NCBI GenBank assembly: GCA_946699065.1
Contig: CAMPDV010001990.1
Location: 1 to 64,000, forward strand
Source: Loxodes magnus
Lineage: Eukaryota; Ciliophora; Karyorelictea; Loxodida; Loxodidae
DNA length: 64,000 bases
Direction of reading: 5' to 3'
Shown here: positions 832-54,166 of the stretch, in pieces
Layout of the letters: each line of letters opens with the position of its first letter
How positions within the stretch are numbered: the stretch's first letter is position 1
Notes under the pieces: generated by a model
What the model saw: only the letters and a program-made list of their open reading frames with translations
What the model was told of the DNA's origin: nothing
Databases searched by the model: none
Made by a program: the position numbers and the translations under genes

Positions 832-2346
832 TATTTTGCTATATTAAAGGTAAGAGGATAAATCTTCAATTAACTATCTTAAATAAATTTTCCTTAATTT
901 AAGGTAAAAATTATAGGCTTTAAGTCAAGGATAAAAAGGCTCTTTTATTTGCGATAAAGTAAATATGACTAAAAGTAATTTTTGAATAAAAGTTACTTTA
1001 TATTGCTTTTTATATCAAACTTGCAAATAGAATCAATTCATTTAAGTCTCCCTCTTTAGAGTATGCACAAGTATTTATTAAAAAAGTCCATTTCTTACTA
1101 TTCTTAAAATAAATAGAAATCCCTTACTTCTTGAAAAATAACAACTGTCTAATAGTTTGCATTCTAAAAAGGTAATTTATAAGCTAAATGACTTGAAATA
1201 AATTTCCTTTATTATATTGGTTCAAAGACTTACTAGAAGATACATCACAAAGGATAATTTTTAATTTGGATTGAATTAATTGCTAAATATCTTGCTATCT
1301 TTAGCTAATGTCTATCATTAGTGTACTTTACTTTCGTATATTCTATATTACGCTTATAGTTGTAATTATCACTAAGTGCTTTTAAGCCTTTGACTTATTA
1401 AGAATATAGATAAAGATAAACTAAGTGTAATGTATAAGTATAATCTACTTAGAGAAACTCCTATTATCAGTATCCTCGCTACAATTACTAAAATTAGCAG
1501 ACTAAATTGTAAAGAGAATAATGCTCTAATGATGTCTAAGAATGAATTAGAGAAGTATAATAGTGAGAAAATGTCTAACTTTGTTTAAGATAATTATCAT
1601 ATTATCCAAGGAAATTAATTTTGGGTATAAGGAAATTATACAGATGAGTATCTCCTAGGTAAATAACATATAAGCCTCCCTTTCATTTAAGATAAGCTAT
1701 TGCATCATTCCTAAAACCAAAACTTATTTTAAATTTATTATTTTGTAAGTTGCTTGCACATAATGACCAATTAGATCATATAATGACTAGTCTCATACTT
1801 AGGCATTATAGCATTATATTTAATCTTAATACTCATAAATATGCTTAAATCCATTAATTTAGCCTTAAGACTTACTTTGCTTATACTTCTCTTAATTTAT
1901 AAATAGCTTTTCAAAATGCTTTAAGTTAAGAACTTGGCTATTAATTACATTATAGCTTACATATTTAATCAAATAATCCAACCTAAAACAGCAACATAAA
2001 TTTGTTATTTTATTCAAAGCTAAAACTCTTAAATTATATCAGAGAAAAATAATTCCAAACTTAAATAAGCAGACAATCTCTTACTTGCCTTGTAAAGATA
2101 GTTATCTATATCAGTATAATTATCTAGATATAGCAAGAAAGCTAATTTAAATAAGAGTTAGTTTAATTTAAATGCTATTAAGCTAAGATAATAGCATCCC
2201 TATTAATAATAGCCTTTATATAGAAATAAAGGAATCAAATAGCAAGTACTAATTACTTTGCTTTAAATCACTTTAAAATTAAATAATTACAAAGAGTCTC
2301 TTAAATCTAACCTATTTAAGCTAAATTAAATTAATATTTAATCAAT
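832..2346. other. Intergenic stretch; right half is a duplicated upstream flank
   Basis: AT-rich DNA unusually full of TAAG/CTTA and AGCTTA words. About 1740-2346, just upstream of TPR gene 1, matches in inverted orientation the DNA upstream of TPR gene 3 (28165-28800): both carry the same order of blocks, including the CTATTAATAATAG-like and GATATAGATAACTAT-like segments. The duplication that made the TPR paralogues therefore took along more than 600 bp of 5' flank, presumably with promoter sequence. Confidence 0.5.
1430..1786 (+). CDS. Possible small gene or gene remnant, unknown
   Basis: Within the intergenic stretch one frame from an ATG at 1430 to a TGA at 1784-1786 (118 residues) begins with protein-like sequence such as NELEKYNSEKMSNFVQD and GNQFWVQGNYTDEYLLGK. 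The protein-like quality starts slightly upstream of the ATG and fades after about 1660, and the 3' part overlaps the duplicated TPR upstream flank. It could be a relic exon rather than a gene. No family recognised. Confidence 0.2.
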
Positions 2347-4392
2347 ATGGATCAATCTATCCCTCTAACTCGCTCTTAATAGTTATACCAATAAGGTAAT
2401 TACCTCTATCAAAATAACAACTACCAAAACGCTATTCAATGCTATAACACTGCGTTATAGCTTTATCCCTAAAACTATAAAGCTCTTTTTAGTAAGGGAA
2501 ACATTCTTAAGGATATGAAAGATTATAATGAAGCTATTAAGTGCTACGATGAAGCATTATAATATGCTCCTAACGAAGCTTCTATTCATTTCAATAAGGG
2601 AAATACACTGTAAATATAAGGCAAATTTAATGAAGCTATTCAATGCTACGTGATAGCTATAAAAAATAACCCTAAAGAAAGAAAGTTTTACATCAATCAA
2701 GGGACTGCACTAAGAGCATTGAATAGACATTAAGAAGCTATTTAGAGCTACGACAAGGCGATTGAAATTAATTCACAAGATCCTTTACCCTTGACTAACA
2801 AAGGAAATGCTCTTTTCGCATTTAATAGAATTGAAGAAGCTATTCAATGTTATGAAGCAGCAATATAAAAAGATCCTAATTTTGCTGAGGCTTATTATCA
2901 TAAAGGAGTAGCGTTAAAAGCTTAAAACAAAGAGGATTAAGCCTTATAATATTTTAATATTGCTATACAAAAGAATCCTAAAAGCATCTTAAGTTAGTGT
3001 AATAGAGCTATGCTTTACTTAAAGCTTCAAAGCAAAACTTAAACATTAGAGGATTTAAACAAGGCATAGTAATTAGCATAAGATGAAAGCAATTTGGTAG
3101 TCCTTAATTAGCAAAATATTGCTTATGTAAACAAAATTTTAAACAAAGAAGCAAGGAAACTAATTGAGGAAATTGCGAGTTTATAAGAAGTTTCTAAAGA
3201 AATAGAGCTAAAGATGAAAACAACTCAAGAATAAAATTAGAATGCAGTCGATCAGTCAATTCAAAATCAATATTAGGATTTGTTAATTAAGTAAAACGCT
3301 TCAGTAAAGAAAGGTTTTGAAGTTTTGAATAAAGAATCAAGCGAGTAAGAAATAGCTTAACTAAAAAATTAAATTGAACAATTGAAGAATCAATTAATAG
3401 ACTTTTAATCTAAAATAAATGAAAAAGTAGATATAGGACAAATAGAATTATTAGCGCTCAAAGTGACTGAAGAAATAGAGTAAAATCAGAACATTAAGAG
3501 TTATTTTGATGCATTATATAATAAAATGTATTTAGCTATTAAAGAAGCTGAAGTAATATGCTCGGGTGGAAAGTTGCAACTGAATAAAGAGAATAATTAT
3601 GTTTAAGTTTTGACATTAGCTCTAACTTACATACCTTTCGTAGGAAATTTAGTAAGTTCTGGTACTAAAGGTGCTTAAAGCCAATATAAAACTAATATAA
3701 CTAAAGAAGATGCAGCAAAGATGATTACAAGTTTGCATACGAATCCCTAGACTAGAGAAGAAATTATAAAGAAAACAGCAGAGAAAATTACTTTAAGCAA
3801 GTAAAATTAAATATTAAATGCAGCTTAAGATCCAGAAGTTTTAAAATGGAAAGAAAAAGGATGAATTAAGAAGTGCAAAGACTTTTTAGTAAAAAATACC
3901 AACTAGTAAATATACGAGCCCGATGTTCAAATTTTAGCTTGCATAGATGCTCTCAAAATAATATACGCAATAAGCTCAAGTTAATTTATTAAATCTAACA
4001 ATGTAGAAGAGATTATCATAATTTTAGCTTCTGTTCCAGAATAATTTACTTTTAAAGGTGGAGAAAATATAAAACCAATAGTATAACAAACAAATTTTTA
4101 ATTTACTAGTTCTATAAATTAAGATTGAACAGTAGCAAATCCTAATTAAATAACTCTTGATTAATAAAAAAGAAACAGATTTTCTTGTTGTTGCCTTATC
4201 TACTCACTTCACGATATTCAATTCTCAAACCCCTTACTTAATAATGTACATCTTCAGAAATAGTTAAGTGCAATGACTAAGCTATCATTAAGTAAAGTGT
4301 TGAAACACAGTTTCAAACTACAAGAGATGGGATTCAACATAAATGATATTGACTTAGAATCAGCAGCATGTTTAATAAACAGTTTAGATTGA
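2347..4392 (+). CDS. TPR protein 1 (tetratricopeptide repeats, coiled coil, conserved C-terminal domain)
   Basis: 681 residues if TAA/TAG are Gln and two internal TGA codons (3862, 4126) are Trp. Residues 10-270 hold about seven TPR units of the NEAIKCYDEAL and NKGN type, a fold that binds partner proteins. A Gln/Glu-rich coiled coil follows (about 275-400), then a hydrophobic Gly-containing segment (LALTYIPFVGNLVSSG), a KG[W]IKKCK site and a C-terminal region ending LESAACLINSLD. TPR 2 and 3 share the same order. The TGA at 3862 aligns with TGG in TPR 2 and with TGA in TPR 3. The final TGA is a true stop: it is shared by all three copies, and the aligned downstream DNA carries an indel that would break the frame. 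The start ATG is shared with the paralogues (MDQS). Partner and process are unknown. Confidence 0.85.
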
Positions 4393-6945: not shown

Positions 6946-9900
6946 ATGGGGCTATCTCAAAGCTGTATCTAATGCTGACGATATTTCAATAGTTAAATCA
7001 TCATTTCCGTTACTCTTCCCTGTGGACATCAGAAGTGCTAAAATTGTGCTTATGAAGAATACTTAAAAGACGGGTCCAACCGGTGCCCAAAAAAAGAATG
7101 CTAAAAATTGTATTTAAAGGATTAAAAAAATTGAATAGATCAAAAAGCTTAATAAAGTGAAAAGGAATACAAATAGCTTCATGTTAAAGAAACTAAAAAG
7201 GAGATACTTTTATAAAAAGTTCCTAAAGAAATAAAAGTTTAGATTTTAACTTAAAATTAATAAAAAATTAGCTTATCAGCAGCAGAAGGAGAAACAATTG
7301 AATAACTGAAATAAAAAATAGAAAGGTTAGAAGGAATCGATCCTGATCTTTATGAGCTTTATAAAGAATCATAAAAATTAGATAGAAAAAAGCAAATAAA
7401 GGAAATAGTGGATTAATAAGAAGTTTAGCTAGACTTAAGGATGAAATAATGTAACTGATATAATAATTTAGGAGGTAAGAAAATAAAATATAGATGGTAA
7501 AAAATAAAGATAGAAAGTAATGATTAATATAATTAGTTTTTGATTAAATAAGACAATAATATGGTAAATAATACAAGAATAGAAAGTAAAGTATTATCAT
7601 AATTAGAGAGTAAATAAATAATCTAAAGAAGGAGAAAGTAATAAATTTAAAGAAGGTTAAAATGAAATAAAGCAAAGTTAAGAATAAATATATAGGAAGT
7701 AACTTATAAAATAGTATGTAATATATTTAATAAAGTGAGTAAGAACTTAAAGTTAGAAAGTAATTAATTTTAATTTTAAGAATGTAAAATAATATAAAAA
7801 CAGATCGTAAAAATATCTAAGAAAGGAAGTAAAAATTAAAATTAGAATGTAAAATATAAAGAAGATTGTAAAGTCATAATTCAAAGATGGTAATATATAA
7901 AGCAAAGAAAGTAAAGTACTTAATTATAGCGAGTAATGTTAATAAATTAAGGAGGTAAAAAATAAAATAAGAGGGTATAATGCTTAACATAGAATGTAAG
8001 ACATTTAAAATATTAATAGATTGTAATATATTTAAATATTAATAGGGAGTAAGACATTTTTAATATTTATAGGAAGTAAGATTATTTAAATAATTATAGC
8101 TTGTAAAGCATTTAAAATATTTATAGATGGTAAAATATTTTAAAATTTATAGTTTGTAAGGCTTTAGAAAATTTGCAGGGAGTAAGATATTTAAAAATGA
8201 TAAAGAAAGTAAGATATTTGAAATGATTATAGACTGTAAGATATTTAAATATTTATAGAATGTAAGATATTTAAGATATTTATAGATGGTAATGTATTTT
8301 AAATATTAATAGTAAGTAAGATACTTTAAATAATTATAGATGGCAACATTTTTAAATATTTAGAGAGTAAGATTATTTAAATTTTTACAGATAGTAACAT
8401 TCATTAAATAACTATAGAGAGCAAGCTGTTTTCAAGGGTTATAGATGGTACGATATTTTAACAGTTATAGAATGTAAGATTAATTAAATATTTATAGGAG
8501 GAAAGATATTTTAAGCATTTCTAGAGCGTAAGATAGTTTAAATGCTTATAGTTGGTAAGATATTTTAAAACTTAAAGAAGGTAAGATAGTTTAATGATTT
8601 ATAAGGAGGTAAGATACTTTAAATATTTACAGACAGTAAGATGTTTTAAATATTTATAGGGAGTAAGTTTTTAAATGAAAATAGTTTGTAAGATATTTTA
8701 AATGATTAAAGATGGTAAGAAATTAAAATGCTTATAAGGAGGTAATATATTTAAAGATATAGGAAGTAAGATATTTTAAATATTTATAGGAAGTAAGATA
8801 ATTTGAATATCAAAAGCTTGCAAGATTAATTAAATGATTATAGACGGTAAAACACTTTAACTGTTTACAGATTGTAAGAAATGATAAATGCTTATAGGAG
8901 GTAAGGTATTAAGCTAATTATAGATTGTAAGATATTTTAATAATTTATAGATTGTAAGATATTATGAATTATATAGGGTGTAGGATACATTAAATATTTT
9001 AGTTGGTAAGATACTTTAATTATTTATAGATGGTAAAGTATTTTAAATATTTATAGAGAGTAAGATATTTTAAATATCTACAGTCAGTAATATCCTTTAA
9101 ATTATTATAGTTCGTAAGCTATCTTTAATATTATTAGGGAGTAAGGGATATTAAAGACTTATAGATGGTAAGATAGTTTAACTGTTTACAGATTGTAAGA
9201 AATGATAAATATTTATAGGAAGTAAGATATTTAAATGACTATAGATTGTGATATATTTTAAATATTTAAAGGTAGTAAGATAATTTACAATATATTAGGA
9301 GGTAAGATATATTAAATATTTATAGAAGGTAAGATATTTTAAGCATTTATAGAGTGTAAAATAATGAAAGTATTTATAGGGAGTAAGATATTTAAATATT
9401 TATAGACTGTTAGATATTTAAATATTTATAGTTTGTAAGATATTTTAAAAATTATAGATAGTAAGATTTCTAATATTTATAGAGAGTAAGATATTTTAAA
9501 TCTTTATAGAGTGTAATATATTTACAATATTTATAGATAGTAAGATATATTAAATGATTTAGCTTGCAAGATATTTTAACTGATTATAGGGAGTAAGTTT
9601 ATTAAATATTTGTAGGAAGTAAGATATCTAAAGTATTTTAGAAGGTAAGATATTTTAAATCTTTATAGCGAGTTAGATATTTATAATATTTATAGTAGGT
9701 AAAGTATTTAAAATATTTGCAGAGAATAAGATATTTTAATACTTATAGAATGCTAGATATTTTAAGCTTTTATAGATTGTAATATTTTAAATATTATTAG
9801 GGAGTAAGGAAATTTAAAGATTTATAGAATGTAAGATATTTTAAGCTTTATAGACTGTGAAAAGATTTAAATATTTATAGAGAGTAAAATATTTTAATAC

Positions 9901-10431
9901 TTATAGATGGTAAGATATTTTAGTTATTTATAGGAAGTAAGATATTTAGAATCTTATAGGAGGTAAAATATTTAGACATTTATAGATTGTAAAAGAATAA
10001 TTGTTCTTATAGTTTGTATTCTATAAAACGCTATAGTTGGTATCCTTTTACTATTATTAGATGGTATAAATTACCTCAGGCGGTAAATTTCTACTTCAGG
10101 TATCTTTTTAATTTTTGATTGTAAAAATTAATTTTTAGATGGTTTGCTTTTTATTAAGCTTGTATTTATTTATATTAGTGTGTAAGCTTTAAGTATAGTC
10201 AGTAAATATAACTAAGAAGAATGTAATATAATTAATTTTGTATAGGGGGTATTTATTTGATTAAAGAAAGTAAATAACTAATATCAGGTAATTACTCATC
10301 TAAGAATGTTATTTGTAATAATTTTATATTTACTAGATCTTTATACTAGGTTGTTATTTATCTATTTACAGGATGTAAAACATTTTATATAAAGTAAGCT
10401 TTTTATATAGAGTGTCAGCTTTTTAATAAAG
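6946..10431 (+). CDS. RING finger / ubiquitin-like protein whose 3' part is split into about 105-110 micro-exons
   Basis: Exon 1 (6946-7450, 505 nt) encodes 168 codons plus one base. A C3HC4 RING lies at the start: C7, C10, C26, H28 (in PCGHQKC), C31, C34, C47, C52, the zinc site by which RING E3 ligases bind E2 enzymes. A ubiquitin-like fold follows at about 97-166: GETIEQLKQKIERLEGIDPD aligns with the ubiquitin [20 protein letters not shown] segment, and VQLDLRM with its last strand. After 7450 the sequence becomes a chain of GT-AG units of 15-25 nt separated by 3-nt exons, plus a few exons of 9, 21, 24 and 27 nt, all multiples of three. Phase 1 set by exon 1 is kept throughout and gives a Trp/Tyr/Asp/Glu-rich tail of roughly 130 residues (for example REEYWRTYVWKNQ). 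The last exon after 10431 and the stop are not resolved. Exon 1 is firm; splicing of the array is inference. Confidence 0.7.
7451..10431 (+). repeat. Tandem mini-intron / single-codon-exon array (about 105-110 units)
   Basis: Each unit begins GTAAG or GTAA, ends ATAG, TTAG, ACAG or AAAG, and is followed by 3 variable bases before the next GT. First units: intron 7451-7471, exon GAG 7472-7474, intron 7475-7493, exon ATG 7494-7496, intron 7497-7513, exon AAA 7514-7516. From about 7960 to 9990 units share a consensus (GTAAGATATT at the start, ATTTATAG at the end, mostly 22-25 nt, giving a period near 27). In the outer parts units are shorter (15-21 nt) and unlike each other except for their ends. 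Variant starts are few: five GC, one GA and one AT. Interiors and lengths vary, yet the ends and the 3-nt gap persist, which is what splicing would preserve. A degenerate minisatellite is the alternative. Confidence 0.85.
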
Positions 10432-11300
10432 TTGAGAATGAAAAAAACAATTAACTCTTATAAAGTTTTATCTTAATTTTGTTTGTTATTTTATTTATTA
10501 TTTATATATTTATTTGTTATTTTAGAGTTATTAATCAGATTATTTTTCTATTTATAGATATATATTAAATAATTTCCTATTATTTAACTTATGTTCATGA
10601 AAGGAGTAGATTCCTTTTAGCAAATAAATTTGATTTGGTATTTAATGGTTTACTTTTATAATTAGACTTGCTATTAGTAATCTATTAGATTTCTTTGTTA
10701 TTTTTAATTATTTTTAAATATTTTAAAAATATAATTTCTATAAATTCTTTAAGTATACAGAATAATCTTACTTTTCAGAAGAATTATTTATTATTACCTA
10801 ATTTTTTTTCTATTAAGTTTTTATTAAATTTAATACTAAAATTCTAAATCTAAATTAAAGTAAAATTGCTTAGTTCTTAGTCTGCTTTATTTTATATTTT
10901 GCAAACAATTGGAAATATCATATGATTAGGTTAATTTACTCCATATATAATTTATAATAGCTTTATTTCCTGTAAGTAAATTGATTTAGTATAAAGTACT
11001 TGCTTTATATATTACTGCTTTACATATATTTTAAAGTAAATTATTTGCATTATTCTTTAAGAGTAGCATCCTGTTGCTTTTTATTTATCTCTGAGAACTA
11101 CAATTTAAAATAGATAAAAAGTAAAATACTTGGTTAGTTAAATGGGATAAAGATACAGTTATTAGATTATAAAAGAAGTAAATTTATATTGTAAAGGACT
11201 ATTGCTAAACTAGTAATTAGTGTATTTACTCCCTATTTATATTAACTACCTTATCAAACTATACTATATTATTTTAATATATAAAACATTATAATATTTA
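10432..11300. other. AT-rich region after the array; terminal exon may lie here
   Basis: T-rich DNA with scattered GT...AG intervals but no regular 3-nt spacing that I can follow. The final exon and stop of the RING-Ubl gene should be near its start. Nothing else is recognisable. Confidence 0.3.
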
Positions 11301-11309
11301 TTAATTAAT

Positions 11310-11585
11310 TGGGAGGAGCAATACTACAACTGAGTTTACTTAAGATCTAGTACCCATGGGCGAAGAACCGAACAAAAATCTTGGTAGGAGCCGAGAGAAG
11401 ATAGGACTGAAAGACATCAAGTAGCATCAATGATGAAAGATGTAAGATACTAAAGTCTCTTTAGGGAGCATTCCGATCACAGTCCCATAGAAGACAAGAC
11501 TCACAAAGGAATGCAAGCACTATGGAAATAATTTTTTAACTTTAATAATCTTTATTAAATAGCTACGCGCCATTGAAGTATTATG
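11310..11585. other. GC-rich island of unknown nature
   Basis: An abrupt GC-richer block (about 11310-11520, with words such as CCATGGGCGAAGAACCG) stands in very AT-rich surroundings, followed by AGCTACGCGCC at 11571. The 9-mer GCTACGCGC recurs inside the hairpin at 44728-44761. It may be a structured RNA gene or the end of a short mobile element. I cannot fold it into a known RNA and see no protein in it. Confidence 0.4.
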
Positions 11586-17491: not shown

Positions 17492-17564
17492 GCCGGTTTA
17501 GCTCAGTCGGTAGAGCGCCAGCCTTTTAAGCTGGTGGTCAAGGGTTAAAGTCCCTTAATGTGCG
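17492..17564 (+). tRNA. tRNA-Lys(UUU), partly decayed
   Basis: A 73-nt cloverleaf: acceptor GCCGGTT, D arm GCTC...GAGC, anticodon arm CCAGC/GCTGG with loop CTTTTAA (anticodon TTT, Lys), T arm AAGGG/CCCTT, then a T run as Pol III terminator. The 3' acceptor strand AATGTGC leaves two mismatches with the 5' strand, and the T loop reads TTAAAGT where TTCAAAT-like is normal (C56 lost, B box damaged). It is probably a pseudogene or a tRNA-derived repeat rather than a working tRNA. Confidence 0.75.
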
Positions 17565-20460: not shown

Positions 20461-22500
20461 TCAATCTAAACTGATTATTAAACATGCTGCTGATTATAAG
20501 TCAAGGTCTGATATATTATATCCCATCTCTTGTAATCTGAAACTGTTCTTCAACACTTTACTTATTGTTAGTTTAGTCATAGCGCTTAACTATTTCTGAA
20601 GATATACGCTATTAAGTAAGGGGTTTGAGTATACAATATCATAATGTGAATATATAAGGCAACAACAAGGAAATTTGTTTCTTCTTTATTATTAATTAAT
20701 GGTTACATTAGTATTCTATGCTACCTAGTTTTAATTTTAAGAGTTAGTAGATTATTAGCTTTTCGCTTTTTCTATTAGTTCTATATTATCCTAGCCTTTA
20801 AAAGTAAATTATTCTGGCACAGAAGTTAAAACTTAGATTTTCTATTCAAAATTGTTAGATTTATTTAATAAGCCTGAGCTTATTGCATGTACGATCTTCA
20901 TAGCATCAATACAAGCTAGAATTTATACTTCAGAACTGTATAATTACTAATTTGAATCTTTTATTAAGCAATCCTTGCACTTTGTTAGCCATCCTTTATC
21001 TTTCCATTTTAATACTTCAGAGTCTTATGCTGCATTTAGTATTGATTTTTACTTATTTAAAGTTATTTTTTCTGCTGTTTTCTTTATAAGTCCTTCTCTT
21101 TCCTAGGGATTCATATACAAATTTTTAATAATCTAAGCTGCATCTTGTTTAGTTTTATTAACTTCGTATGTTTTTAATGTACCTTCAACTCCAGCACTTA
21201 CTAAATTTCCTACAATAGGTATAAAATTCAAAGCTTATGACAGAAACGAAACTCCTATATTTCCTTTGCTAACTTCTAACTTTTCACCGCATACTAAGCA
21301 TGCTTCTTAAACAGCTTAATGTAATTTATTATAAAGTGCGTCAAAATAATTTTTTAGGTTCTCATTTTACTCTATTTCTTGAGAAACTTTAAAAGCTACT
21401 ATTTCTATTTCACTTTTGTTTGCTTTTTTACTAATTTAAGAACTTTATTGTTAAATTTACTTTTTTAATTCTATCATGTCAGTTTTCAATTAAGCTATCT
21501 CTTATTGATCTGATTCCTTAATAATTACTTCCAAAGTTTATTTCACTGCTTCACTTAACTATAATTTAAAATTTTACAAAAGGTTTCTACCAGGAGTCTC
21601 ACCTGTTTTCTCATTTTATTAAGATGATTACAGTTTTTGTTCGATTTTCAGAGCAGATTATTATAAGCTAACGACTTCTCCAATAAGCTTTATTTTTTCT
21701 TCGTTTATAGCTTTATTTACATAAGCAACATTTTATTCATTTAGGGATGCTAAATTGCTTTCATCTTATGCCAGCTAATATGCTTTGTTTAAATCATCTA
21801 ATGCACTAGTCTCATTTTGAATTTTCAAGTAAAGCATGGCTCTATTGCAATAACTCAAGATATTTTTAGGATTCTTTTGTATAGCGATATTAAAGCAATC
21901 TAATGCTTAGTCATTTTTATTCTAGGCTTTTAACGCGACTCCTTTATGAGAATAAGCGTCAGCATAATTAGGGTTCTTTTATATAGCTGCTTCATAACAT
22001 TGAATAGCTTCTTCAATTCTATTCAAGGCGAAAAGAGCATTCCCTTTGTTATTTATAGGTAATGGATCTTGAGGATTAATTTAGATTGCCTTGTCATAAC
22101 ACTAAATAGCTTCTTCATTTCTATTAATTGCTCTTAGAATATTCCCTTTATTTATGTAAAACTTCCTTTCTTTAGGGTTATTCTTTATAGCTATCTCATA
22201 ACATTATAAGGCTTCATTAAATTTGCCTTAGACTTACAGGGTATTTCCTTTATTAAAATAAATAGAAGCTTCGTTAGGAGCATACTACAAAGCTTCATCG
22301 TAGCACTCAATAGCTTCATTATAATTCTACATCTCTTTGAGAATGTTCCCCTTACTAAAAAGAGCTTTATAGTTTTGAGAATCAAGCTATAAAGCAGTGT
22401 TATAACATTCAATAGCCTATTGGTAGTCCTTGCTTTGATAGAACTAGTTGCCTTATTGATATAGCTCTTAAGAGGTAGCTAGGTTATTAGATTGATCCAT
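20461..22500 (-). CDS. TPR protein 2 (tetratricopeptide repeats, coiled coil, conserved C-terminal domain)
   Basis: 679 residues, ATG at 22500, TGA stop at 20463-20461. About seven TPR units (residues 10-270; YNEAIECYDEAL, FNEALQCYEIAI, ANKGN-like turns), a coiled coil of about 130 residues, a hydrophobic Gly-rich segment (LNFIPIVGNLVSAGVEG), the site KDKGWLTKCKDCL with TGG for Trp, and a C-terminal CCC plus LQSAACLIISLD end. This copy has no internal TGA, so it is the reference for showing that the TGA codons in TPR 1 and 3 sit at sense positions. Likely a cytosolic scaffold; the hydrophobic hairpin might contact a membrane (inference). Confidence 0.88.
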
Positions 22501-23992
22501 ATTATAACTTAATAATTCTAGCCTAGTTTAAATAGGTTAGATTTAACAGAATCTTTCGTATTATTAAAGTTTGACTAATTTAAACTATAATAACTAAAAT
22601 TTATGGTTCAGTTCCTTTATTTCTACATAAAAGCTGCTTTTAGTAATGATGGTACTATATTAACTTAAAAGTATAAGGTTTTAATATCTTTACTCTTGCT
22701 TTAGCATTAGCTTTCTTACTTATCTAGCTGTTTACTATCTTATTCATCTAGCTAAGCCAATAAAGCTATAGAGAGGATATTTTGCTTTACTTAGCTTCTG
22801 ATCTCTTTTTCTTTAAATAGAGGTCTAGAATTTTAAATTTGGTGCTCTTAAGGTAATTTAAGTTCTCTAAGTTACTCTTAGTTAATTGATAGAAATGCAA
22901 TGATAATATATTTTTTAACAATCAGCAATTTCCTTTAGATAGTACAACCATTTTGGAGAAGATAGCATAATTTAAGAAAAGCTTAGCAGGGAAAATATTA
23001 AGGCTAATATACAAGGATTTTAAGCTGTTTTATTACACTAAGATAAGACTAAGAATCTTATTGCTATAGGGTTAATTTAAAACTGGGACTAATAGAAAGT
23101 AATCTCTGAATATCTTAGTAATTTACTTAAAAGGATAATCAAAATTAGTAACAGAGGAAGAATAAATAGTAAGCTAAGTAATAAAACAGCATGACAGTGT
23201 AATTAAATGCCTAAGAGATATTGGAGCAAACTCTTATATTTATCACTTCTTCAAGATACCTAAAAAGTGAATAGTTAATAAACTAAGAATTTACAATTAA
23301 GATAAAGAAATAAAATAACTATAAGCAAAGCAGTCTAACTTCATAGTTTATTCAAGTTATGAAAGAAACGAGAACAAATAATCAAGATAAATGAATAAGA
23401 TGAAGCTATAAAACTGAATTAAGCAAAAGATACAACATGTAATTATTATATTTTAATAAACAGTAGAAATAGCTCAAAAGAAGCTTAGTTGAGGATATAA
23501 TTTTAATTGGTTTAATTAAATTAAATAGTTATAAGCTATATAAATAAAAAGTCTTTATAGTAACAAAGAGATCTTAAATCAAGAGTCTCAGATACTAAAG
23601 TATTTTAATTATAGTAATAGATGAAAATCCTTTATTTATGCTATATAAATAATTTAAACCTTAAAAGCTACATAGCTATATGATATTTAAGATTAAGAAT
23701 ATAGGAGCTAGTTATTTATTACCTATTAGGTATAATTAAGAGAGAATAAAGAAAAGTCTTAAATAATAGTTATTTAATTGATACAAAGCAATTGTATCTT
23801 TTTGTTTTGTCAAGTGAGAAAAGAAAAGTAGTTGCTCTTCAACTGATTTAGCAAATATAAAAAAATACTGAAGTTAAGGAAATTTGAGATATTTATTTTT
23901 ACTAAAAAATAGCAAAATAAGCAAATTTAGGTTTGAAGTGAAAAATATTTCTTTAGATATTTGTCTTTCAATAGATCTTTACGCAAAATAAT
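22501..23992. other. Intergenic stretch upstream of TPR 2
   Basis: No recognisable gene. Only a weak trace of the upstream flank shared by TPR 1 and TPR 3 is visible here, so TPR 2 may carry a different or more diverged promoter. Confidence 0.35.
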
Positions 23993-26286: not shown

Positions 26287-28164
26287 TCAATCTAAACTGA
26301 TTACTAAACACGCTGTTGATTCTAAGTCAAGGTCTGATATGTTATATCCCATTTCTTGTAGTTTGAAGCTGTACTTCAACACTTTACTTATTGTTAGTTT
26401 AGTCATAGCGCTTAACTATTTCTGAAGATGTATATTATTAAGTAAGGGGTTTTAATACTAAATTCTATGAAGAGAATAAATGAAGCAACTGCTTTGAGTT
26501 GATATATTTTCTTTTTATTTTACTTTTTCTCCTCCTTAAAATGTAAATTAATCTGGAATTTAAGACAATTTATCAATTTTCTCTTGCTCTTCATCAGGCA
26601 TTTCGAATTAATCTGAACTTAAAGCGTAGATTATTTTGAGAGCATCAATACAGACTAGAATTTCTACATCAGTTTAATACATTTACTGGTTTATATTTTT
26701 TATAAAAAAGTTTTTGCATTTCTTAATTCATCCTTTTTCTTTCCATTTTAATACATCAGAATCTTATGCTGCATTCATTATTTCATTTTTCTTTTTTAAA
26801 GTAACTTCCTCTGCTATCATCTTTAGAATTTCTTATCTAATAATAGGATTTTTTCCCAATCTTAAAATCATTTTTACTGCATTTACTTTAATTGTATTAG
26901 CTTTGTATTGGTTTCAAACACCTTTAGTACCAGAACTTACTAAATTTCCTACCAAAGGTATGTAAGACAACGCTAATGTCAAAGCTTAAACATAGTGATT
27001 CTCTTAATTCAATTGTAATTTTCCAGTTGAGCTTATTATTTCAGCTTCGTGGACTGCAAGGTATAGCTAATTATGCAACGCATCATTATAATTCTTAAGA
27101 TCAACATTATCCTTTATTTCTTTACGAACTTTGAGAGCTAATAATTATATTTGGTCTATATCCACTTTTTAATTTACTTAAGATTACATTTCTTAAATTT
27201 GTCTCTTCAACTGTTAATTCTCATCTTCTAAATACGCTAGTTTCTACAAAATAAATTCTTAATTTGAAATTTGTGAACATTTCTTAACTTAATCTCTTTA
27301 TATTTTCAAATCCTAGATTTGATTGTTAATTTGAAGATAACCTGAAATTTATCTTTGCTACTGAGATTAGATAAAGTTTTCTTTTATTTTTGTAGAAACT
27401 TCTTGTAAGCTCTCAATTTCTTCAGTTAGTTTCCTTTCTTCTTCAATTATATCTTTGCTCACATAAGCTTTATTTTGATTTTTAAAGGAAGCTAGATTGT
27501 ATACACTCTATTCCAACTACTATACTTATTCTATGTTATTTTATATAGCCACATTAAAGCATTCCAATGCCTAATCTTTTTTGTTTTGTTCTATTAATGC
27601 TATTCCTTTATGGGTATGCGCCAAAGCAAAATTAGGGTTCTTTTATATAGCTAAATCATAGCATTTGATAGCTTCTTTAATCCTATTTAAGGCGAAAAGA
27701 ACGATTCCTTTGTTACTCAAGGATAACGGATCTTGAGGACTAAATTCAATTGCCTTGTCATAACACTAAATAGCTTCTTCATTTCTATTAATTGCTCTTA
27801 GAATATTCCCTTTATTTATGTAAAATTTCTTTTCTTTAGGGTTATTCTTTATAGCTATCTCATAACATTACAAGGCTTCATTAAATTTTCCTTAAGTTAT
27901 CAATGTATTTCCTTTATTAAAATAAATAGAAGCTTCGTTAGGAGCATACTACAAAGCTTCATCGTAGCACTTAATAACTTCATTATAATTCTACATCTCT
28001 TTGAGAATGTTTCCCTTACAAAAAAGAGCTTTATAGTTTTGAGGATCATGTTATAAAGCAGTGCTATAACAATTAATAGCCTCTTGGTAGTTCTTGCTTT
28101 GATAGAACTAATTGCCTTATTGATATAGTTCTTAGGAGCGAGCTAGGTTATTAGATTGATCCAT
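26287..28164 (-). CDS. TPR protein 3 (tetratricopeptide repeats, coiled coil, conserved C-terminal domain)
   Basis: 625 residues with ATG at 28164 and TGA stop at 26289-26287. Same plan as TPR 1 and 2: seven TPR units, coiled coil, hydrophobic segment LALSYIPLVGNLVSSGTKG, and C-terminus ending LESTACLVISLD, but a shorter coiled coil and C-terminal linker. Two internal TGA codons: 26916 (aligned with a Gln/TAA codon of TPR 1) and 26730 (aligned with the conserved KGW Trp, TGG in TPR 2, TGA in TPR 1). With TGA read as Trp the gene is intact and without frameshifts. It shares both flanks with its paralogues, so it is a recent duplicate. Confidence 0.85.
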
Positions 28165-29679
28165 ATTTATTATGATATTAATTTAATTTAGCTTAAATAT
28201 AGTAGACCTAAGAGATCCTTTGGTATGATTTAATTTAAATATCTTTTTAAGGAAAACAATTGGGGTTAGTCGTTTAGATAATTAATTTCTATATAAAGGG
28301 TATTATTAATAGGGATGGTATTATCTTAGTTTAATGGTATGAAATATAATTAAGGTAAATCTTATTTTAAATTAGCTTTCTTGCTATATCCAGATAATTA
28401 TGATGATATAGATAACTATTTTTGGAAGACTAGAAAGTAGATTATTTGCTTATTTAATTTTTGAATTATTTTTCTCTGCCATAATTTAAGAATTTTAGGT
28501 TTGAATAAAATAGGAAATTTAAGTATTTGATTTAGATTGGATTATATGATGAAATATCTAAGCTATAATGTAATTAATAGGCAAATTTTCTTAACTCAAA
28601 GCATTTTGTAAGGTATTGATAAATTAAGAGAAGTATAATTAGATTAATCCTTAAGGCTAAATTAATAGGATTAAAGCTGATTTATGAGTATTAAGATTAA
28701 ATGATGTGCTATAATGCCTAATTATGAGACTAATCATTATATTATTTAACTGGTCATTGCAGTTAAGCCACTTTAGATTAGAACTAATTGTAAGCTAAAT
28801 TAGTTTTATTCCTTGTTATAGAAATAATGGTATAGCTTATCTTAAATGAAAAAATACTTATATGATGCTTACCTAGGATATTCCACTATTAAGATTTTTC
28901 CTTATACTTTAAAGTTTTATCCTTATTTATATATTACCAATCTTTAGCAATGCCAGGCTTATTCCTTTAATAAGTATCTCTATATTATTCTTAGCTTTTC
29001 AGTTTATTCTTGATATAGTTTCTTCTACTAACTTTAAATAAAGCAATGAAGATATGATAATAGGAATTTCTTAATTTGATTAATCCTTATACATTAAGCT
29101 AAGTTATCTATAATCTTACCAGCATCATAGAAATAATTAGACAGAAAAGCTCAAAATACTAATCAACTATTTTATGAAGCTTTTAATTAAGTTTCTTCTT
29201 AAAGATATTAATAACTTATTAAGCTAGATAAAACAAACATTACTCGATTATCAACCAAAACTTACTATAAAAACATTTAATTACTCTAAATAGGATACTT
29301 AAAGAAAGAGAAATCAACCATTCCTTTTAAATATGTAGAGTCAATCAAGTAACTCTCATTTATAACTTTCTCCAGTTTCTTAGCGTCTACTAAATATGGC
29401 TAATATATTTAAAAATAGTAGGAATTCTAGAATATTAATGCTTAATAGCTATGTATAATAGAGTTATTCAATTATTCCTAAAATAATAAAATGCTTATAG
29501 TCTTCTACCTTGGGAAATTCTATCTATCTTCTGGTTTAAAAGACAAAAGCTATAATTTAGCATTTTTATTGCTTCTTTCAAAAAGTCTCTTTATAGAAGA
29601 ATTCATCCAAACTACGATCAGTAAACAATACTTTAAGACCTCAAAATTATGCAATAAGAAAATTTTAAACCTTTAAGAC
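28165..29679. other. Intergenic stretch; left part is the TPR upstream duplication
   Basis: 28165-28800 matches 1740-2346 in inverted orientation. The remainder is TAAG/CTTA-rich with no gene that I can support. Confidence 0.45.
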
Positions 29680-49282: not shown

Positions 49283-52200
49283 TTAATTATTGGATCGTCT
49301 AAATCTAAATGACATAAATAATGTAGACTAATTTTATATTCCATAATCAGCCACACTAAGAGAGGATCTTAATGGTCCAAATCCTAAATTTAAGCCAAAA
49401 TCTTAAACTCCTGTTTTTAAATATATTTAAAATTCTAATTCTTTGATTATTGTTTACGCAGAAACATTACAGACTAATGTTTAACCATCTAAATTTGCTA
49501 CAAAAATTTAAAAATCCTCATTATAATGCAAATTAATATTACTTTTCAATTTAAAATATGTTTCCATCTAAATTTAATAATCTTATAAAGAAAGTTCATC
49601 TTCAAGAATATTATTATTATTCCAAAGACTACAAAACTCAACAAATTAAAATTGGCTCTCTATTCTTCTTTTAATACTTTTTATAGAATCTTAATAATCA
49701 GCATTTATTTAAATATCTTTTCCTTTAGGTAAATTAATTCAGATTTTTATTTTATTATCAAAACGAATTTTTAAATCAATCTCAGAATTATCTTCAATAT
49801 TGTATTATTATAAAATATTCTCATCCAAGAGTTCGTTTTGGTAATAAAATAGTTTTTAAAACTTAGGTATAATTCCTATTTCTTAACAAATTTTCTTTTT
49901 TAGGCTTTTAATTTTTTAGTGCTGATATATATCTATAACAAAATGATTTCCACAAACAGGCATTATTTTAATTTTTATATATTCTAATTATTCTATTTTC
50001 TATATAGCAAATTACTCTAGTTAAGTTTAATTTTTTTTATTTTAGCATAATTAGTCTCAAAAATCAAAAAAGAGCGTCTCATCATTAATTTAATTTCCAT
50101 CATAAGATATTTTAAACTATTTAAGTTATTTGTTCTCTTATTTTAATTTAGATTTAATCTCTTTAAAACTATCGAAATTAAATACCCTTATGTTGTATGT
50201 AGAAACTTGAATATGAGTCTTTACACTTACAAACAATATTGAATGAGATTTAAAATCATAATCTGAAAAACAATTATTATCATTTAGCTTCACTCCATCA
50301 AAGGGTAAATATAAGTCTACTTCTACTTTTTAAAATCGATTAAAAAATTAAGAAATTTATTCTTTAAATTCTTTTATTTTCTATTAAGAGTTTAAAGTAC
50401 AAAGAATATATCTATAAGGATATATATAAATTTTCACTTAAAATTAACCAGAACTTTTTAATTACTAATCAAAATAACCTGAAAATAGTTCTTTTTCATT
50501 CTAGATAACTTTTTGATTCTAATTTGTTAAATAACTTTATAATTTCTCAAATTTTAATAAAAGTTAACTTTATTCCAATATTTTTTATCTTTTTGAAAGT
50601 TCTTCTTAGTGAGACTAATTTTATAATATTGAAAGTTATTTCATATTACTCTCTTATTAACATAAATCATTATTTGAATTTTGGAGATCAAAAATTTTTT
50701 AATTTAACTAATCTTCTTACAATTTATATATCTCAATTTCATCCAAGAGCTTTTAATTATTATTCTAAATATCTTCTTTTTATTTGATATGCTTTTCCAC
50801 TTCCTTTTAAAGACTGAAAACATAATTTTGCAAATGTGAAATTTAAATTTTTTAATATCCATCCTAATTTTAAATATTTTGATTCTTATTTTCACTATTT
50901 TAATTTTGCTAGTTATCTTATTCTAATTATTCTTATAATTAGGTTATATTATTTTTTAAGTTTTAAATTTAGTTTTATTAGTTTTCTATATCATTCTATA
51001 ATTATTAAATCTAGCTTTTTAAATATTATTCTTCCTCCTTCAACTGGGTTTCGACATTTTATAACTTTTAGATTTAAATTGATTTTCTTGCTGAATCACT
51101 CTGTGATTACTTAAGTTAACTTTCCAGTTATTTAACTTGCTCCTTAAGTTATGTTTCATAATCTTATAATGCTTAGACTTACATTGATTAATTCTCAATA
51201 TCATTATTTGATTATTAAAGACAACTTTCCAGTTATTATACTTGCTCCTTCAGTTAGATTTCTTTATCTTGTAACTAATAGATTAGGCTTTTTTTAATCT
51301 CAGAATCCCTATTTGACTAATTAAGTTAACTTTCCAGTTACTTTACATGCTCCTTCAGCTAATTTTCTTTATCTTATAAAATTTAGATTTAAATTTATTT
51401 ATTTAAAGTGTCTCCTTATAATTAAAAATTATAACTTTATAAATATTTTACTTGCTCCTTAAGTTAGGTTTCGTTTTCTCGTAACTCATAGATTTCGGTT
51501 TATTTATTCTCAATATCACCAATTGATTACTTAAGTTAATTTTCTAGTTGTTTTACTTGCTCCTTCAGCTAGTTTTCAGAGGTTTATAATTTTAAGATTT
51601 CTTTTTATTTTGTCTCTGTATTATTCTATGATTACTTAAGTTAAACTTCCAGTTACTTTATTTTTTTGTTTAACTATATTTCATTATTTTATAACTTTTA
51701 GATTTAATTTCCGTATTACTTTTTATCATTATTTGATTACTCAAGTTAATTTTCCAGTTCTATTACTTTTTAATTCAGCTAGTTTTCAGAGGTTTATAAC
51801 TTTAAGATTTCTTTTTATTTTGTCTCTGTATCACTCTATGATTACTTAAGTTAATTTTCCAGTTCTATTACTATTTAATTCAACTAGGTCTCAGAGGTTT
51901 ATAACTTTAAGATTTCTTTTTATTTTGTCTCTGCATCACTCTATGATTACTCAAGTTAATTTTCCAGTTCTATTACTATGTAATTCAACTAGGTTTCAGA
52001 GGTTTATAACTTTTAGATTTCTTTTTATTTTGTCTCTATATTACTCTATGATTACTTAATCTAATTTTCCAGTTACTTTATTTTTTTATTTAACTATATT
52101 TCATTATTTTATAACTTTTAGATTTAATTTCCGTATTACTTTTTATCATTATTTGATTACTCAAGTTAATTTTCCAGTTCTATTACTATTTAATTCAGTT

Positions 52201-54166
52201 AGGTTTCAGAGGTTTATAACTTTAAGATTTCTTTTTATTTTGTCTCTGTATTACTCTATGATTACTTAAGCTAATTTTCCAGTTCTATTACTTTTTAATT
52301 CAGTTAGGTTTCAGAGGTTTATAACTTTAAGATTTCTTTTTATTTTGTCTCTGTATTATTCTATGATTACTTAAGTTAAACTTCCAGTTACTTTATTTTT
52401 TTATTTAACTATATTTCATTATTTTATAACTTTTTGATTTAATTTCCGTATTACTTTTTATCATTATTTGATTACTCAAGTTAATTTTCCAGTTCTATTA
52501 CTTTTTAATTCAGTTAGGTTTCAGAGGTTTATAACTTTAAGATTTCTTTTTATTTTGTCTCTGTGATACTCTATGATTACTTAAGTTAATTTTCCAGTTC
52601 TATTACTATTTAATTCAACTAGGTTTCAGAGGTTTATAACTTTAAGATTTCTTTTTATTTTGTCTCTGTGATACTCTATGATTACTTAAGCTAATTTTCC
52701 AGTTCTATTACTATTTAATTCAACTAGGTTTCAGAGGTTTATAACTTTAAGATTTCTTTTTATTTTGTCTCTGTGATACTCTATGATTACTTAAGTTAAT
52801 TTTCCAGTTCTATTACTATTTAATTCAACTAGGTTTCAGAGGTTTATAACTTTAAGATTTCTTTTTATTTTGTCTCTGTATTATTCTATGATTACTTAAG
52901 TTAACCTTCCATTTCTATTACTTTTTAATTCAGGTAGGTTTCAGAGGTTTATAACTTTTAGATTATTGCTTGATTTTCTGATACAGTAATTTTTATTTGT
53001 TATAGCTCTATTTTCAATTCTTTATTCTTTTGCTTTTTAATTCATAAGCTTTAAGCTTCTTATTAAGATTTATTCTAAAATTCTTTTTCTTGCTTATTCA
53101 TTTAGTCTTATAAACTTATTATATTACTCTACATTTCGGTTATTTCTTATTCCTTTTATACGTATAAATCTTATTTTTATAAGAAGGTTTTAATGTTAAA
53201 AAGCTCTATATCATTAACTAATTCTTTTAAAATAATTTCGCTAAGTTCTTATTTATATAAGTAGTTTAAATTTTAACTAGGTATAGTTCAAGTTTATTAA
53301 CCCACACTTTAAATTAAACTTTGACACAACTCAGCTTTGTTTTTAAATTCTTCATAGTGCATTTCTTAATTTGCTTAAAATTTTTGGAGACATGAAATTG
53401 TTTCTATTAGTTTAAGTAAATTTTCTTCAAATAGAGATGAAATTCCTTAAAATTTCTGGGTTTACTCATATAATTTTCTTTTTGCTATGCTTATAACTCT
53501 CTTAATGAGACTTTTAATGACTTCTTCTATCTCTTTTTATTGTTTTTCTTTAAGTAATTAAGTTAGTTTAAAGCATGTATTCATCTTTTCAATCTTTTAA
53601 TTTAAATCCCCTTGGTGACTTTATAGTTCTTACATTTTCTACTGTTTAATGCTTTATACAAATTATTCGTATTCTGGTACTTTTAGAATTTTGCATTTTC
53701 TATGGTTTTCAGATATGCATTTTGTACAAAATATCAATAAATTATCTTAGCAAATCGTTTCAATTTACTCGTTCTGAGTGTCACACTAAGTTATAGGTAC
53801 TTTTTTGTACATTTCTTCATTCTTCGTATTTGTTTTTACTCTTGATCAGTCTATTTTGTAACTATTCTCAGCACCACAAATAGCACATGTAAAGGTTTAT
53901 TCGTGAAGGGATTTATTGATAAGACATGGATAGCAAGAAAGATGACCGCATTATTGAGTCAGAGGAATTCGCTCTGAGTCATAAGGATTATAGCAAATCT
54001 GGCAAATGTATTCAAGGATTACATCTTCATAGCAGGTATTTTCAGGGGAGACATATGCGGAGGAGTAATTTTCAGAGGAGGTATTTGAAATAGAGGTATT
54101 TTCAGGTGGGATAACATTAGGTGGGGAAACTTTAGGAAAGTCATCTTTAGGTGAGCTATTTCCCAT
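49283..54166 (-). CDS. RING / B-box / coiled-coil protein with four C-terminal ubiquitin-like domains
   Basis: About 1627 residues in one frame, no intron. After a Pro/Ser-rich tail: RING C55, C58, C73, H75 (QCGHLSC), C78, C81, C94, C97; B-box-like zinc site C139, C147, C150, H155, C158; coiled coil from about 170; then about 18 repeats of 35 residues (TETKQKEILKLQTSETQLNQ...), five heptads each. The end holds four ubiquitin-like folds: TYNIRVFNFDSFKEIKSKLK; GNHFVIDIYQHQKIKSLKKK; GKDIQINADYQDSIKSIKRR; and FQIFVANLDGQTLVCNVSAQ...SVADYGIQNQSTLFMSFRFR, which follows ubiquitin (MQIFVKTLTGK...LSDYNIQKESTLHLVLRLR) closely. RING-B-box-coiled-coil is the TRIM E3 ligase plan. No in-frame TGA follows the last fold; the TAA at 49285 is the likely stop. 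Confidence 0.9.
51040..52960 (-). repeat. 105-bp coding tandem repeat, about 18 units
   Basis: Units of 105 bp (35 codons, five heptads) inside the RING/B-box gene. Copies from about 51680 to 52960 are nearly identical, those toward 51040 diverged. A variant unit (with TTTCCGTATTACTTTTTATC on the forward strand) recurs at about 51700, 52130 and 52445, so blocks of three and four units have been duplicated as higher-order repeats. The frame is kept in every unit. Confidence 0.9.

Follow-up and report, generated by a model that had tools for sequence, protein, structure and literature searches.

What kind of gene results when an exon encoding a RING finger and a ubiquitin-like (Ubl) domain is followed directly by a long run of minute intron-like units spaced three nucleotides apart? 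This question is raised by positions 7451-10431 of a 64,000-nucleotide (nt) stretch of the Loxodes magnus genome (contig CAMPDV010001990.1, positions 1 to 64,000, forward strand; hereafter the window), for which a preliminary description had proposed a gene split into single-codon exons. The array is real, and we consider it highly probable, from sequence comparison, that it forms the tail of a RING-Ubl gene, lying in single-codon exons whose intervening units are removed as ordinary introns and whose codons are shuffled by recombination between near-identical introns. The split-gene proposal is supported by conserved triplets and a conserved reading frame in the 5' block of the array, and we strongly infer that the RNA is spliced at single-codon exons. 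The comparisons described below establish the spread of the gene family, the conservation of both triplets and reading frame in the two end blocks, and selection acting on the GT and AG ends.

A splice-site parse of positions 7431-10470 yielded 116 intron-like units of 15-25 nt, 110 of which are preceded by exactly 3 nt. This agrees with the initial count of 105-110 units of 15-25 nt, running from GT to AG with 3-nt spacing from position 7451. The donors were GT in 108 units, GC in six, GA in one and AT in one. The parser imposes AG and favours 3-nt exons, hence the importance of two checks that are independent of it. Chains restricted to GT..AG ends and 3-nt spacing reached 28 and 27 units, as compared to four at most in 200 sequences from a first-order Markov model of this region. 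When the middle units were aligned without regard to their ends and triplet, 72 of 75 carried AG and 66 carried GT. The longer gaps, initially said to be multiples of three without exception, are so in general, apart from a 4-nt exon in one parse (a 21-nt exon at 7656-7676 in the alternative, preferred parse) and the 16-nt stretch at 10337-10352.

The array, which lies like the rest of the gene on the forward strand, consists of three parts. The 5' part (7451-7995) is made of single-codon exons and about 24 mini-introns whose interiors are diverse, as judged from the parse, from unit-by-unit homology with paralogs and from a conserved phase-1 protein; it also contains a 27-nt exon (7537-7563) and, in the preferred parse, the 21-nt exon. 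In the middle (7996-10012), 76 units form a tandem repeat of 27 nt with the consensus GTAAGATATTTTAAATATTTATAG plus NNN, each made mostly of a 23-24 nt intron and one variable codon, and these units align one by one with those of the paralog L021. The triplet columns of this repeat are nearly random (0.17-0.43 bits, versus 0.56-1.9 for intron columns) and its interior columns vary. All 76 repeat exons measure 3 nt in the parse, so that no AG needed to be skipped there. The 3' part (10013-10431) is again made of diverse mini-introns and single-codon exons, encodes a conserved FKWESNY motif and includes a 21-nt exon (10100-10120) and a 27-nt exon (10288-10314) in the parse, with exon limits that are uncertain from about 10337. 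The probable start of the last exon (10432-10481) reads TINSYKVLSQ, where paralogs have TINSFK or FNSFKYLSQI. The preliminary description drew no distinction between the two outer parts, with their diverse interiors, and the tandem repeat of the middle.

Exon 1 (6946-7450) encodes a C3HC4 RING and a Ubl domain in 168 codons plus one base, when TAA and TAG are read as Gln and TGA as Trp. The Pfam ubiquitin model PF00240 matched residues 99-166 of 168 with 28.0 bits (cut-off 25.4), the match stopping directly ahead of the array. RING models of Pfam remained under their curated cut-off in the window copy. Among eight paralogs, the ubiquitin profile matched all eight and the commoner RING models five or six, at E values up to 0.01, and the C3HC4 ligands (C7, C10, C26, H28, C31, C34, C47 and C52) are invariant. 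These domains would make the product a putative ubiquitin ligase. Concerning the genetic code, three paralogous TPR genes of the window use both TAA and TAG for Gln and have TGG in one, TGA in the two others, at the same Trp position, which fits the karyorelict code (table 27).

Triplets joined in phase 1 extend the frame of exon 1, the first joined codon being TGA; the unspliced frame also meets a TGA, three codons further. Both readings thus reach TGA directly after the Ubl domain, as would be expected if the gene ended there and the array were a non-coding minisatellite, lying in the 3' untranslated region or downstream, with accidental GT and AG. In this code TGA means Trp when far enough from the poly-A tail and stop near the 3' end, according to the account in PMC11441545, and the 27-nt tandem repeat of the middle, whose triplets are no more conserved than the introns between the window and L021, is also what a minisatellite would look like. 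On the other hand, the units within 7451-7995 and within 10013-10431, though no copies of a single repeat, keep GT, AG and the 3-nt spacing. The TGA that straddles the first junction (T, then GA) was seen directly after the Ubl domain in the window and in the other in-frame main-family copies first compared, and it recurred in 14 of 16 further loci, L046 and L047 being parsed differently. It might act as a conditional stop.

A minisatellite also does not account for the conservation of triplets over intron interiors. We compared nine distinct paralogs over the 15 homologous units that follow the 21-nt exon (the 5' block). These counts left out copies with a frameshifted exon 1 (L013, L014, L015), a truncated copy (L019), distant copies (L029-L031) and near-duplicates (L001-L010, L016, L018, L022, L024, L026-L028). 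Irregular exons of 4-5 nt shift the frame in the paralog translations for the window, L012, L020 and L025, and leave the 5' block counts unaffected. All exons of the block are 3 nt in all nine paralogs. Triplet identity was 0.837, 0.800 and 0.893 at the three positions, versus 0.707 in the orthologous intron interiors (0.561 in a shifted control), and 51% of the orthologous introns kept the same length. The 15 triplets encode RVLKKYWKYFETREE in the frame of exon 1, recognisable in all nine paralogs. Among the triplet positions, conservation is weakest at the one that forms the third codon position in phase 1, and the ratio of nonsynonymous to synonymous change (pN/pS) was lowest in the exon 1 frame (0.45, versus 0.67 and 0.65). 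Between the window and L021, pN/pS was 0.64 in that frame, versus 0.84 and 0.72 in the others, and 0.53 in exon 1 itself. The suggestion that the triplets join exon 1 in phase 1 is upheld by this reading, which extends exon 1 and is conserved in the nine paralogs. The further expectation of conserved triplets amid drifting interiors in relatives was borne out for the 5' block of the nine paralogs, and not for the middle in the window-L021 comparison.

Conservation of protein motifs likewise extends over junctions and reaches the last exon. One conserved Trp that spans a junction is encoded by TGA in L009 and by TGG in L021 and L023. Most of the paralogs read have KWESNYLLENV or close relatives of it in the 3' block, and the last exon, TINSYKVLSQ in the window, continues with EIEITINSFK or SFKYLSQI in paralogs. 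The distant copies L030 and L031 have EWGLLWE in phase 1 in common.

We then consider the splice ends of the middle units, which were aligned to the repeat consensus with ends and triplet unscored. In nine loci with an intact exon 1, AG was kept at 0.84-1.0 and GT at 0.76-1.0, for a squared interior match of 0.61-0.90. In a broken copy, L033 (CGD for CGH, last Cys pair gone, frameshift within the Ubl domain), the values were 0.63 for AG and 0.54 for GT, with a squared interior match of 0.57. GT, AG and spacing therefore persist while interiors drift, and ends and interiors drift alike solely in the broken copy, contrary to what is expected of a minisatellite. Where a donor T was lost in the middle units, it had become C in five of six cases, whereas C accounted for 33 of the 137 changes counted at nine T columns of the interior (Fisher p 0.005). 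Introns with GC-AG ends are a known variant in splicing. GT..AG and rarely GC..AG ends under selection, together with lengths of 15-25 nt, are what characterises spliceosomal introns of L. magnus, which are mostly 16-25 nt long. The comparison was made with published L. magnus introns. These have a mean length of 19.3 bp and a mode of 17, 93% being of 25 bp or less and those below 16 negligible (PMC11441545); as far as that account goes, ordinary tiny introns of L. magnus have the same lengths, and their genes the same genetic code, as the array genes.

The 3-nt spacing is special at the scale of the genome, which likewise argues against a minisatellite. In the assembly that holds the window (705,730,643 bases, 7843 contigs), we counted the two-intron pattern GTAA N11-19 AG NNN GTAA N11-19 AG NNN GTAA, with the reversed pattern as control; matches within one array overlap. 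With 3-nt spacing, 17,972 and 19,009 matches were obtained (36,981 in all), versus 453 and 400 (853) for the reversed pattern. With 4-nt spacing the counts were 295 and 211 (506) versus 149 and 147 (296), and with 6-nt spacing 91 and 258 (349) versus 181 and 136 (317). Taking these results together, we regard the minisatellite explanation as very improbable.

The preliminary description dealt with one gene. Its reading as a gene is supported, and it is now extended to a large family in which near-identical copies differ in their middle codons. A DNA search with exon 1 gave at least 43 matches (40 scored among 385 first-look candidates), and a protein search with the exon of L032 at least 150, its own locus and redundant contigs included (all 150 scored among 2495 first-look candidates). 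A long array was present in 19 of the 20 loci first taken (L009-L028); it is interrupted in L013 and less regular in L014 and L015, and L019 retains just the first seven units. In L013 (C224:457000-464711), exon 1 is frameshifted and the array is broken up by several hundred bases of other sequence. All of 16 further loci, chosen among the 150 exon 1 matches, carry an array, and a KRVLKKYWKYFETRDE-like stretch is recognisable in the exon 1 frame in each of them, provided that irregular exons are allowed for L046, L047 and L039. Four arrays from the genome-wide pattern list (L029-L032) also adjoin Ubl exons. Their Pfam ubiquitin scores lie over the cut-off in L029 (38.8), L030 (30.1) and L031 (27.4) and under it in L032 (20.2), which is yet a clear RING-Ubl relative; no RING match was found in L030 and L031. 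The broken copy L033 provided a fifth array from that list. These two Ubl genes (C12:963800-966400 and C5:19400-22200) have shorter arrays, of 23 and 26 units, and longer introns, mostly of 26-29 nt. Among the 36,981 pattern matches, the six array loci read (on C4, C5, C6, twice on C10, and on C12) all adjoin a Ubl exon, broken in the C6 case; C2, C13 and C15 have single matches. A single pattern match on C11 (L034) proved on inspection not to be an array. Protein searches with exon 1 gave no relatives (21 candidates), and Pfam no credible match to the spliced tail in three frames.

Seven copies (L002-L008) are 99.6-99.7% identical to the window over 3951 bases covering about half the array. 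They lie on other contigs and include the near flanks of the window gene; two of them stand 82 kb apart on contig C930, so not all copies can be redundant contigs.

How do the middle codons vary in such a family? The window array is old (interior match 0.84), and young arrays behave differently. L038 and L050 show 100% identity across 598 bp, from the exon tail into the 5' array; their middle introns are 98% identical, with only 2 of 10 middle triplets the same. Similar middle differences were seen in the pair L037-L044. Six loci (L051-L056) are 98.3-100% identical across their first 600 bp, and in the four whose sequence extends that far the 3' flanks are 100% identical over 304-668 bp past the array. 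L051 and L052 correspond to the loci L038 and L050, and the stretch of L053 ends inside its own middle. The middles of the six differ, forming strings of 32-73 exons. In six of their 15 pairs, the 5-codon words in common (8-35 words) exceeded every shuffle, part of this sharing being at common ends (the first 22 units in the pair L051-L055, the last 17 units in the pair L052-L056). The mutual information between codon and adjacent intron variant was 1.00 and 1.16 bits, versus 0.43 and 0.47 when shuffled, none of 500 shuffles reaching the observed values (299 codons, six loci). For instance, AGT stood beside an intron ending in ..AAAG in 19 of 31 cases. This linkage suggests that the units move as wholes, and codon shuffling in young arrays is probable. 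Trp and Tyr made up 111 of 462 codons in phase 1 in the middles of the eight loci L051-L058, versus 84.5 +/- 5.1 with triplet order shuffled (0 of 1000 reached) and 55 and 51 in the other phases, although repeated words make these codons non-independent.

Codons of young arrays could also change in place, through targeted mutation or strong selection on triplets, without movement of units. This would suit the nearly identical introns around different triplets in L038 and L050, and the pair L057-L058, in which a rare intron, GTAATATA.., occupies the same unit, accompanied by the codon ATG in one copy and by AAT in its partner. We regard such change in place as distinctly unlikely, the codons being tied to intron variants over six loci. 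Codon differences between unchanged introns may correspond either to conversion of short tracts or to change in place.

A more serious objection to shuffling is that the differing strings could be an assembly artefact, the splicing reading being right and the arrays stable. The assembly was made from long reads of a genome rich in low-complexity repeats, and consensus mixing among near-identical repeats could exaggerate shuffling; moreover, alleles cannot be told from loci in this assembly. Several copies lie equally far from contig starts and the eight contig starts read have no telomere repeats, both as redundant contigs would show. The middles of L039, L043 and L049 are identical, eight of the 15 pairs mentioned above have no 5-codon word in common, and one pair has two, a number reached by shuffling. 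Noise, however, would not give strings with common codon words and codon-intron linkage, and the flanking units on those contigs show little or no difference. An artefact of this kind seems to us unlikely, while deserving appreciable weight.

Under the reading that we favour, the gene would consist of the RING-Ubl exon, a C-terminal region of about 110-130 codons, nearly each in its own exon, and a last exon. All introns would be in phase 1, and the ordinary spliceosome would take them out, as it does other introns of this ciliate; these measure 16-25 nt, a size to which intron definition would be suited. Neighbouring introns, 3 nt apart, are presumably too close to be occupied simultaneously, so they would be removed in turn, in an ordered or recursive fashion. 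The unit of evolution would be an intron plus a codon. Recombination, unequal exchange or gene conversion between near-identical introns would add, remove or swap whole codons, and the frame would thereby be kept. From the contrast between young and old arrays, arrays would shuffle while their introns are alike and freeze as these diverge, the window copy being a frozen one. The product would combine a constant RING-Ubl part and constant ends with a hypervariable segment rich in Trp, Tyr, Asn, Lys and Asp which, judging from architecture and composition, perhaps binds varied partners. We tentatively suggest, with some doubt, that this amounts to a codon-cassette diversification, in which single codons are shuffled without frameshift to give a repertoire of RING-Ubl proteins with differing aromatic-rich binding segments.

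The outermost ends of the array are also GT and AG, and since the arrays are in one phase, any donor can join any acceptor in frame. The array might therefore often be removed whole, as a single large intron, or block by block, and its single-codon exons be included in certain isoforms only, as an alternative-splicing device. This we hold to be quite improbable, as the codon-by-codon conservation of the 5' block indicates that those codons are regularly in the product. As an addition to constitutive splicing of single-codon exons, alternative inclusion of one-phase exons is a possible source of further diversity. The host being a ciliate, the intervening sequences could also be removed from the DNA and not from the RNA. 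We find this barely credible: the units are present in an assembly that matches the macronuclear one in size, the account in PMC11441545 reports no classical eliminated sequences in L. magnus, and GT..AG ends with GC tolerated are those of splicing.

Several observations fit less well with single-codon exons. AG is not depleted inside the introns (266 seen, 257 expected), so splice-site choice would have to be positional. Intron lengths in the window are multiples of three in 66 of 116 cases, which is no depletion, unlike ordinary L. magnus introns; the corresponding figures are 1 of 26 in L031, as in ordinary introns, and 7 of 23 in L030. Depletion of such lengths is a trend of ordinary introns and no requirement for splicing. 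Over all 103 unit pairs that were matched one to one between the window and L021 by their introns alone, identity of the triplets in the whole array (0.806, 0.718 and 0.748) is not in excess of that of intron interiors (0.765), position 2 of the codon being the most conserved, and the pN/pS intervals of the three frames overlap in this comparison. Triplet codon usage, compared with that of the window TPR genes in a set with one duplicated codon, picked no phase. The 16-nt stretch leaves the 3' end of the window array irregular, no stop codon was located for the window copy, and the limits given for its last exon are provisional. Decay of the ends at the pace of the interiors, which had been named beforehand as a refutation, was seen in the broken L033, and L014, with its frameshifted exon 1, is intermediate (AG 0.86, GT 0.71, squared interior match 0.67); intact copies retain both ends. 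A protein search with the spliced L021 tail (one candidate) found no outside homologue, and a tblastn search with the contiguous spliced tail of L011 (12 candidates scored) found no intronless copy, an empty result that proves little.

No run of single-codon exons was found described in the open-licence PMC literature, where isolated 3-bp and 1-nt exons and micro-exon genes turned up. The closest likeness in the accounts consulted is with the micro-exon genes (MEGs) of Schistosoma mansoni, a gene superfamily in which very short exons, the smallest of 3 bp, occur in runs (PMC10526429). As in MEGs, the coding region in the window is made largely of very short exons, 3-nt exons preceding 110 of the 116 units. 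The introns, however, are not long: MEG exons measure 3-81 bp and their introns up to 5 kbp (PMC10526429), whereas Loxodes exons are mostly one codon and introns mostly 16-29 nt (15-25 nt in the window). By their description, MEGs are also set apart from the Loxodes arrays by the latter's dozens to more than 100 consecutive tandem exons and by codons that differ between near-identical copies. The bicycle genes of gall aphids are similarly a fast-evolving family whose relatives were sought via gene structure; as described, they differ in being insect effector genes (PMC9168663). A 3 bp exon in Drosophila homothorax (PMC7392893) and a 1 nt exon in Fusarium CYP621A (PMC12940212) illustrate that a spliceosome can include a tiny exon, each reported as a single one in an otherwise normal gene. 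Cryptococcus introns arising from DNA repeat expansion (PMC2395259) provide a case of repeats as intron source, described without a run of single-codon exons. The main text of PMC11441545, which treats ordinary genes, contains no mention of ubiquitin, RING or microexon, and tandem repeats of at least 1 kb were masked in that analysis of L. magnus. Such masking would probably hide arrays like those of the RING-Ubl genes; as tandem-repeat masking and short-read splice mapping both work against them, array genes would be largely hidden from standard annotation.

If the favoured reading is true, these genes would represent a new extreme of gene structure, with roughly 100 introns placed between successive codons, and would raise the question of how a spliceosome handles introns just 3 nt apart. 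The introns would have a proposed function, namely to preserve the frame when recombination takes place at the level of codons. The shuffling, if real, would be a new way of building a protein repertoire, analogous to antibody or variable-receptor diversification in its logic, not in its machinery, and at single-codon resolution.

Other features of the window and of its relatives were noted. The three TPR-repeat paralogs lie at 1648-3864 (+), 20461-22743 (-) and 26914-28998 (-); a scan for viral contigs using one of their proteins gave no match. A further RING-like gene (MGNSSPKDDFPKV..CQICYNPYDSERIPL, as read by eye) is located at 49800-54200 (-); after it comes a long region that is rich in Gln and contains coding repeats of 105 nt. 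Only one element of the window, a Lys tRNA (17492-17564), reached an Rfam cut-off. Downstream of the array, a GC-richer stretch (11310-11530) looks structured. Another GC-rich element, distinct from this one, is a few hundred bases long and recurs beside the arrays of L020, L029 and L033; it is possibly a short interspersed element (SINE).

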